The notes below the pieces were generated by a model. That model saw nothing but the letters and a program-made list of their open reading frames with translations, had not been told where the DNA came from and ran no database searches. 64,000 nt of DNA from Tomitella biformata AHU 1821. GTDB taxonomy: Bacteria > Actinomycetota > Actinomycetes > Mycobacteriales > Mycobacteriaceae. Every line of letters begins with the position of its first letter. The first letter of the stretch is position 1. A program made the position numbers and the translations under genes. The DNA lies in NCBI RefSeq assembly GCF_000524475.1, contig NZ_BAVQ01000036.1, positions 1 to 64,000 on the forward strand, in the 5' to 3' direction. Below, piece by piece: positions 18,276 through 62,583 of the stretch.

Positions 18276-18323
18276 AACGCCGAATGGCGCTGGCCCCCTA
18301 GGGGACCAGCGCCATTCGGCGTT
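18276..18323. terminator. Bidirectional terminator between MBL gene and crp
   Basis: An 18-bp perfect stem (18276-18293 with 18306-18323, beginning AACGCCGAATGGCG) is extended by a further CCCC/GGGG pairing inside. It lies between two convergent genes and serves either direction. Confidence 0.85.
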
Positions 18324-48484: not shown

Positions 48485-48504
48485 CCCCCTACTCGATGTG
48501 AATC

Positions 48505-48570
48505 CGCCGTCGCTTCCTGTGGTCGCCCCCGTTGCAACGGGAGCGAACGCCGGAAGCGACGGCGAATCGT
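48505..48570 (+). terminator. Branched terminator after topA
   Basis: CGCCGTCGCTTCC (48505-48517) pairs with GGAAGCGACGGCG (48552-48564). Within the loop CCCGTTGCAACGGG (48528-48541) is itself a palindrome. It begins 20 nt after the topA stop and ends 34 nt before the next gene. AATCGTT follows. Confidence 0.7.
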
Positions 48571-61343: not shown

Positions 61344-61423
61344 CCGCGGCACTTTGCGTCCGTTCCTTGGCCATGCGCACCCTGCAGCCTGCGCACGGCC
61401 ATAGACGGGACGCAAGGCTGCGG
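61344..61423. repeat. Imperfect palindrome L flanking the DUF559 gene
   Basis: The left arm GCACTTTGCGTC...TTGGCCATGCGCA (61349-61379) is followed after ten bases by a partly complementary arm (61390-61423). The left arm is 28 of 31 identical to the left arm of palindrome R at 62510-62540. It lies between the convergent glycosyltransferase and DUF559 genes and may act as a terminator. Confidence 0.75.
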
Positions 61424-61447
61424 TGCCGGTCAATGGCCGCGTGCGGA

Positions 61448-62401
61448 TCAGGTTGTGCGCGGGCCGCCCCGCCATTTGTGCGCACGCCGGAAGGCCTCGG
61501 CGATTCGGCTGCGGAGCACCAGTGGACGGCTAAGGTCTGCCCACACCCAGCGGACCACAACCAATCCGGTGTCGCGAATGCGGTCTTCACGGATCTTTTC
61601 CCGGTAGAGAACGTCGCTCGCGTCTTGGCCCGGCTTAGGGTACTTGCCGTACTTGACTTTGCCGTCGAACTCGCCGACCACGGCCGTGCCGGGGAAATCG
61701 AAGTCGACACGGCCCAGGCTCTCGCCGCCGGAGCCGAAGACCCGACGTTGCAACGACGGGGTGGGCAGTCCCACCTCCCGGATCAGCAGGCGGCTGAGGG
61801 ACTCCCCAACGCTCTCGCTGCGGCCGTCCATCAGTGTGAGCGCATGCCGGGCCTTCGCGGCTCCATGGCGGCCGGTGGCCGTGGCGACAGATGCGGCCAG
61901 GTCGCCGACGGCAAGCCCGAGGCGCAATGCGTGATCGCCCGTGGACACCGCAGAGTGCAGGCTGAGGGTTCTGGCTAGATCGGTGATGGTCCTCGCCGGC
62001 GAGGTGACGCGTAAGCCATCGATCTCGACTATCTCCGCGGGTTCCAGGGCCGTCGGGTGGTGGTGCACATTTGGCCCGCGTCTTCCGGGCCGGGCCCCTG
62101 TACGCGTCACGTGGACGGCCTGCAGCGGCGCGTTCCAGACGTCAAATCCGTGCAGCACCGCGGCCGAGATATGGCTGAACACAGCCGTCTCACCGTGCCG
62201 GTGAGCTGCGGCGACGACCCGCGCCCGGTGTTTGTCGACGACGTCGAGCTCTCGGTACTCAGGCTCTGGCAGATAACTGCCGCGGGCGATATGGACGAGA
62301 TTGTTCTGGTGGCAGTCGCGGCGCAGATCTGTGTCCGTGATGCCCGCCAGTATGGCGTCGCGCCGGTGCAGCAATGGTGGTTTCCGTGATCCCATGGACA
62401 T
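61448..62401 (-). CDS. AbiEi-antitoxin-like / DUF559 nuclease-fold protein
   Basis: The 317-aa protein has an N-terminal winged-helix part (R-R-D-A-I-L-A-G-I-T-D near 11-21, then N-L-V-H-I-A-R-G-S-Y-L near 30-42) like AbiEi-type antitoxin domains, a central region (F-S-H-I-S-A-A-V-L-H-G near 70), and a C-terminal VSR/DUF559-like nuclease fold with R-V-D-F-D-F-P-G near 230, V-V-G-E-F-D-G-K-V near 243 and R-E-K-I-R-E-D-R near 268. E-F-D-G-K resembles a PD-(D/E)xK core. No partner toxin gene is adjacent. The start ATG 62401 lacks an SD, so the mRNA may be leaderless; element C lies 46 nt upstream. Confidence 0.75.
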   Translation of the reverse strand: MSMGSRKPPLLHRRDAILAGITDTDLRRDCHQNNLVHIARGSYLPEPEYRELDVVDKHRARVVAAAHRHGETAVFSHISAAVLHGFDVWNAPLQAVHVTRTGARPGRRGPNVHHHPTALEPAEIVEIDGLRVTSPARTITDLARTLSLHSAVSTGDHALRLGLAVGDLAASVATATGRHGAAKARHALTLMDGRSESVGESLSRLLIREVGLPTPSLQRRVFGSGGESLGRVDFDFPGTAVVGEFDGKVKYGKYPKPGQDASDVLYREKIREDRIRDTGLVVVRWVWADLSRPLVLRSRIAEAFRRAHKWRGGPRTT

Positions 62402-62446
62402 AAGTGTGCATAGGCAGACGCTCGCTGACGGCCCGAAATGTGATGA

Positions 62447-62475
62447 CCTGTGGATGGGGGAGTGCCTGTGGATAA
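62447..62475 (-). promoter_or_regulatory. 29-bp TTATCCACA element, copy C (DUF559 gene promoter)
   Basis: On the minus strand: TTATCCACA, ten bases, CATCCACAGG, with spacing identical to copies A and B at the Tad locus. It ends 45 nt before the DUF559 gene start. The shared internal CTC after position 13 also agrees with A and B. Confidence 0.65.
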
Positions 62476-62507
62476 CTGTCCGGAGAGGCCTCGCCGCAGG
62501 CGCTGTT

Positions 62508-62583
62508 CCGCACTTTGCGTCTGGTCTTTGGCCATGCGCATGGCACAGGGTGCGCATGGCCAAACAGCGGGCGCAAAGTGCGG
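62508..62583. repeat. Long near-perfect palindrome R flanking the DUF559 gene
   Basis: The 33-nt left arm (62508-62540) and right arm (62551-62583) are complementary at 29 of 33 positions, with uninterrupted blocks CCGCACTTTGCG and TTTGGCCATGCGCA; the centre is ten bases. It ends 8 nt from the DUF2304 stop codon, so it could terminate that operon. The shared sequence with palindrome L shows it belongs to a repeat family. Confidence 0.8.

Follow-up and report, generated by a model that had tools for sequence, protein, structure and literature searches.

Palindrome-boxed genes for a predicted AbiEi–Vsr-type nuclease in Tomitella biformata and other Actinomycetota: a probable REP/RAYT-like repeat-spreading module

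In Tomitella biformata AHU 1821, a gene for a predicted nuclease is enclosed by two copies of a palindromic repeat, and the same boxed arrangement is confirmed here as real and general across many actinobacterial genera. The explanation we favour, with a probability of roughly 0.7, is that gene and palindromes together form a selfish repeat-spreading module akin to REP/RAYT, with a homing-endonuclease-like nuclease as its enzyme rather than an HUH transposase. A more specific proposal, held with confidence only slightly better than even, is that these modules constitute a new class of mobile elements, multi-copy across Actinomycetota, in which an AbiEi–Vsr (EDxHD-like) nuclease binds and cuts its own 55–75-bp palindrome, spreading both the gene and swarms of gene-free palindromes; such a class would be an independent counterpart of REP/RAYT in which a restriction-like nuclease replaces the HUH enzyme.

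The module, about 1.2 kb long, lies in the window, the whole stretch of 64,000 nucleotides that was analysed. Palindrome L (61349..61424, no strand assigned), on the 3′ side of the gene and between convergent genes, is an imperfect hairpin and a cognate repeat of the boxed nuclease; palindrome R (62508..62583, no strand assigned), on the 5′ side, is a near-perfect hairpin with 33-bp arms. Both hairpins are far stronger than shuffled sequence (single-stranded DNA fold z −4.1 for L and −8.1 for R). The gene between them (61448..62401, minus strand) has an ATG start and encodes 317 amino acids; it is the only one of 115 window ORFs of at least 200 aa with matching flanks, and the genes around it encode a family-2 glycosyltransferase, a DUF2304 protein and a second glycosyltransferase. 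The original prediction, made from the sequence alone, had placed the two palindromes directly outside the gene, where they indeed lie, and had counted 28 identical bases among the first 31 of L and R; a recount returned the same figure. As to the claim that both copies share one orientation, alignment of the 67-nt copies gives 76% identity for direct repeats and 82% complementarity for inverted repeats, and the inverted fit is slightly the better for this pair (39 versus 30). No T-run terminator was found at L or R, and no known RNA families were found in the region of the locus.

An AlphaFold2 model of the window protein, built from a 64-member alignment (mean pLDDT 92.9), is covered over the entire modelled chain by an AbiEi-like and a Vsr-like fold. 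Residues 6–192 (61826..62386, minus strand) contain an N-terminal winged helix and are presumed, in the absence of binding data, to be the palindrome-binding part; in the predicted model they match the AbiEi antitoxin 6y8q_A (Z 11.5; Foldseek E 1.3e-5). Residues 196–309 (61475..61816, minus strand) match the catalytic domain of I-Bth0305I (3r3p_A; Z 11.5, 97/97 residues, rmsd 2.5) and also Vsr (1cw0; Z 9.5), and XisH/TnsA and other restriction-fold matches score below these two. The assignment of this nuclease domain rests on the predicted-model fold match together with conserved residues: E200 and D233 are invariant among 64 relatives, and E244, D246, G247, E272 and D273 are nearly so. The shared Vsr-type fold of the model suggests that the protein is an active nuclease; activity itself has not been shown. 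PADLOC assigns the window protein to AbiEi (3.9e-17), and Pfam PF13338 AbiEi_4 matches 34 of the 64 family members. The gene had been described as DUF559 nuclease-like, a label that needs qualification: the Pfam DUF559 model does not match the window protein itself, but a second subfamily (B; paralogs L023–L025) is matched by DUF559 (PF04480) and REase_MTES_1575 (PF18741), and the C-terminal fold is predicted to be Vsr-like. A Y1 transposase domain is absent from the Pfam and PADLOC results, which comprise AbiEi/DUF559-type domains only. A profile search of PDB sequences gave no match, and PHROGs contains no family for this protein.

Boxing extends well beyond this locus. Eleven relatives were detected in the genome of the window, and eight of them (L019, L020, L021, L024–L028) are boxed by a matching pair of palindromes, the sequence of which differs between paralogs and is matched on both sides of each; L022 and L023 have one hairpin each, and the more distant relative L029 has none. 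In a set of 80 named relatives from Rhodococcus, Prescottella, Williamsia, Nocardia, Pseudonocardia, Nakamurella, Microlunatus, Geodermatophilus and other genera, 47 have a matching pair no more than 500 bp from the gene, as against 0/70 for displaced flanks and about 0.8% for swapped pairs. A second set, comprising 60 loci from genera in the same family and order, contains 38 boxed genes (0/55 displaced flanks, 0/500 swapped pairs). The two sets overlap in a few loci (L035/L312 and L086/L329, for instance, with identical palindromes), and their combination gives 85/140 boxed genes versus 0/125 displaced flanks and less than 1% of swapped pairs. Hairpins are present near the ends of boxed genes at frequencies of 52% and 61%, and at 0–2% at a distance of 1.2–1.5 kb; the 5′ palindrome mostly lies 60–300 bp ahead of the start codon. 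Boxing on both sides is missing in about 40% of the family, and 42% of the unboxed named loci retain a hairpin 3′ of the gene. The suggested REP/RAYT-like layout with a Vsr-like nuclease is thus seen in 8/11 paralogs and 85/140 relatives, while movement and mechanism are inferred.

Many boxed loci are old and have been inherited vertically between sister species. Three of the boxed copies in the genome of the window (L026–L028) are frameshifted, which is consistent with the turnover and decay of a selfish element. Carriage as prophage or plasmid cargo was considered and rejected, as no phage record matches the family and only six plasmid records do, three of them from Tsukamurella. Some loci have a more elaborate structure. 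At L181 and L178 (G002 and G004) the palindrome–gene–palindrome unit is followed by a further ~700 bp and, in G002, by its palindrome once more, as copy number three, and the extra piece is missing from the same locus in G003 (L168); at L171:2760-2860, tandem partial copies of a palindrome arm and its flank sit beside the palindrome, as if derived from faulty repair.

The palindromes are 55–75 bp long, and their similarity, compared over 46 loci, rises with the identity of the N-terminal domain: they are mostly unrelated below about 55% identity and always shared above 80%. The Mantel test gave 0/2000 permutations, and the partial rank correlation with palindrome similarity is higher for the N-terminal domain (0.25) than for the nuclease domain (0.11), part of the relationship being owed to shared ancestry. 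At the level of sequence, and without binding data, these comparisons show each palindrome to be cognate to its protein, with a sequence that tracks the predicted DNA-binding domain. Palindrome arms of the window-like subfamily often contain a direct pair of half-sites with a spacing of exactly 19 bp (the best 9-mer match averages 5.9 at this offset and is near 4 at others); the second subfamily, with its simple long hairpins, does not have this pair. Compensatory double changes between L and R number 22, compared with 4.7 expected if changes were independent, and palindrome symmetry is therefore maintained, whether through selection or because one arm converts the other. That L and R evolve in concert could not be upheld as a general rule: a comparison that covered all but the last two groups gave one clear case only, L183, in which L equals R over 58 bp while L and R of the ortholog L176 differ.

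Palindromes also occur without a gene, as solos. The genome of the window harbours about 24 solos of its own families, about nine for L021 and four for the window family; one solo, for example, lies between acetyl-CoA-synthetase-like and FKBP-like genes (gene names by reading). Adjacent solos of two families, L021-type and window-type, are found at L007:1405-1563 (G000:C44). The three same-genus genomes G002–G004 carry palindrome families of their own. Except for short weak matches, none of the own-genome families was found when sought in G001–G004, and none of the G002–G004 families when sought in G000 and G001. One family has, besides the boxed gene, about 10 solos in G003 and three in G002; G004, without the gene at that family's site, has one solo, at a site common to G002 and G003. 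In Williamsia and Lolliginicoccus genomes the palindromes reach dozens, with at least 38 solos in Lolliginicoccus (41 scored places including boxed copies), where only 40 of 140 candidates were scored. Solo dispersal is limited to genomes that have the cognate gene or a sister species with it. The search for palindrome copies that had been proposed along with the original prediction thus did uncover solos, only in such families, and the outcome that would have refuted it, palindromes widespread without relation to nuclease genes, did not materialise.

Presence and absence of the module were compared at syntenic sites. At the window site, all three same-genus genomes that span it (G002–G004) lack both the nuclease and the palindromes, and the flanks enclose other genes instead; these genes make the junction of the window module itself unreadable, and other loci were used. 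Three loci could be compared within G002, G003 and G004, which are ~78–94% identical there (L176/L183 versus L216; L171/L184 versus L217; L174 versus L218 and L219), and at each of them the empty site joins the flanks without gene and without palindromes. The solos L268, L265 and L252/L299 are likewise missing at syntenic sites of sister species. Because the gene and both palindromes are missing together, and solos likewise, the variable unit is the whole block, or a palindrome together with as many as ~70 nt next to it. The edges of the block are not fixed to the base, the palindromes being accompanied by 10–70 nt of additional sequence, and there is one possible target duplication (7 bp, CGCGGCC at L174), the other junctions being unresolved. 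The element with this possible duplication (L174:2630-4240, G004) has unusually complex ends derived from several different palindromic arms. The expectation of empty sites in relatives was met, in that the gene is absent from the window site in 3/3 spanning same-genus genomes and three other loci are empty; its presence at this site in all relatives would have spoken against a module. It is important to point out that presence and absence are unpolarised, for lack of an outgroup, and that loss by deletion is formally still possible. Gain accounts more readily than loss for independent, scattered sites, and insertion rather than deletion is an inference.

Binding, cutting and the route of repair are likewise inferred. 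In the scheme we propose, the AbiEi-like domain would recognise the palindrome; the 55–75-bp length of the site and the two half-sites per arm, 19 bp apart, that are often found in the window-like subfamily make a dimer or higher assembly probable. The Vsr/EDxHD-like domain would then nick or cut at or near the palindrome, in the form of either a duplex or an extruded hairpin, and repair of the break would carry copies of the palindrome, with or without the gene, to other sites. Solos would be non-autonomous REP/MITE-like units served by the nuclease, although recombination between L and R may have left part of them behind as scars. There are precedents for both halves of the protein: I-Bth0305I, an EDxHD enzyme, dimerises on nearly 60 bp of target DNA (PMC3943268), and the AbiEi proteins recognise inverted repeats of 23 bp (PMC7319586). 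Against the module stand the lack of any cleavage or binding data, the unpolarised empty sites, the imprecise block edges, the unboxed members of the family and the vertical inheritance of many boxed loci.

The closest parallel in layout is REP/RAYT (TnpA-REP) with its REPINs, where one gene is likewise flanked by palindromic repeats, many gene-free copies are dispersed in the genome, each repeat class is tied to its own gene and the end repeats are mostly direct. The boxed enzyme, however, is an AbiEi–Vsr/EDxHD fusion whereas RAYT is an HUH/Y1 tyrosine transposase, its palindromes measure 55–75 bp compared with 20–40 bp for REP, and those of one subfamily have the two spaced half-sites in each arm. 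The layout is thus a known one; the enzyme is new for a REP-like module, the test for the RAYT enzyme family having failed. IS200/IS605 and RAYT elements follow a single-strand style, and direct-type ends are contrasted with those of DDE elements. The end repeats of the boxed loci fit better as direct repeats in 49 cases and as inverted repeats in 15, with 21 ties, and by analogy look more like the former; DDE insertion sequences have mirror-image terminal inverted repeats, the type of fit that is slightly the better one for the window pair, and a short target-site duplication, for which the boxed elements offer the one possible 7-bp case.

The nuclease domain shares its predicted fold with I-Bth0305I and Vsr (Z 11.5 and 9.5), and I-Bth0305I also offers a likeness in its very long target, on which it sits as a dimer (~60 bp; PMC3943268). 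Unlike EDxHD homing endonucleases, the boxed nuclease has an AbiEi-like DNA-binding part, its gene does not reside in an intron or intein and carries two palindromes along, and it does not interrupt its own site, as empty sites lack the palindrome (assuming that the palindrome is the recognition site). AbiEi antitoxins and Rv2827c share the N-terminal fold, and the AbiEi family binds inverted repeats beside its own gene (PMC7319586), but the boxed nuclease has no NTase toxin partner, bears an added C-terminal nuclease and has palindromes on both sides of the gene as well as dispersed ones. DUF559 and REase_MTES_1575 proteins are related insofar as the subfamily B paralogs match both models; no function or repeat association was found for them in open PubMed Central papers.

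Other explanations need to be weighed against the module. The palindromes might be operators through which the AbiEi-like domain represses its own gene, solos being other regulated promoters or boundaries, with no mobility involved. AbiEi and Rv2827c do control their own expression through 23-bp inverted repeats that they bind in their promoters (PMC7319586), and both the usual position of the 5′ palindrome, 60–300 bp before the start codon, and the tracking of the DNA-binding domain by the palindrome fit this idea. It is nevertheless unlikely, though it should be kept in mind, as it leaves a second copy directly 3′ of the gene, the varying presence of blocks and solos between sister species and the dozens of solos per genome without a reason, and repression does not need a conserved nuclease domain. 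Autoregulation and mobility are compatible and may both hold. The simpler view offered at the outset, that L and R are hairpin terminators of a single repeat family, draws on the strength of the hairpins and on the position of L between convergent genes. It has to be given up as very improbable: there is no T-run at L or R, R sits 5′ of the gene, every paralog is flanked by a matching pair peculiar to it, and the distribution follows the cognate gene, just as palindrome sequence tracks the protein. Neither terminators nor simple operators explain the data.

A host or defence nuclease could also have become lodged, as a remnant or passenger, inside pre-existing REP-like repeats moved by an unrelated transposase, taking no part in their spread. 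Nuclease activity is untested and RAYT-type enzymes elsewhere in the genome were outside the search, which leaves some room for this account, but it is quite unlikely, since it can hardly explain why each gene has its own cognate palindrome, why palindromes correlate with the N-terminal domain or why family palindromes co-occur with the cognate gene. That the protein is the antitoxin of a type IV toxin–antitoxin or abortive-infection system of the AbiE type is scarcely credible: the AbiEi fold and the PADLOC AbiEi matches point that way, but there is no AbiEii/DUF1814 partner, the neighbours being glycosyltransferases and a DUF2304 protein, and the window protein carries its own nuclease domain.

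No literature linking DUF559, MTES_1575 or AbiEi proteins to dispersed palindromes was found among open PubMed Central papers. A large multi-copy family, annotated as 'DUF559' or 'AbiEi family antitoxin' without a role, thereby gains a hypothesis, namely that its substrate is the palindrome beside the gene. The predicted substrate can be read from any genome, and dozens of enzyme–site pairs are ready for binding and cleavage tests. If cleavage were shown, the module would merit a class of its own; confirmation would mean that REP-like swarms arose at least twice with unrelated enzymes, and would provide a natural collection of nucleases whose long target sites can be read off.

Two further hairpins were noted in the window. 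A long one of similar style (48502-48567; z −8.0) has a topA-like gene on one side and a lipase-like ORF on the other; no boxed family of its own genome matches this hairpin, which may be an orphan whose gene has been lost. The other (18276-18323) is near-perfect, with arms of ~21 bp, and is perhaps a terminator or another orphan palindrome.
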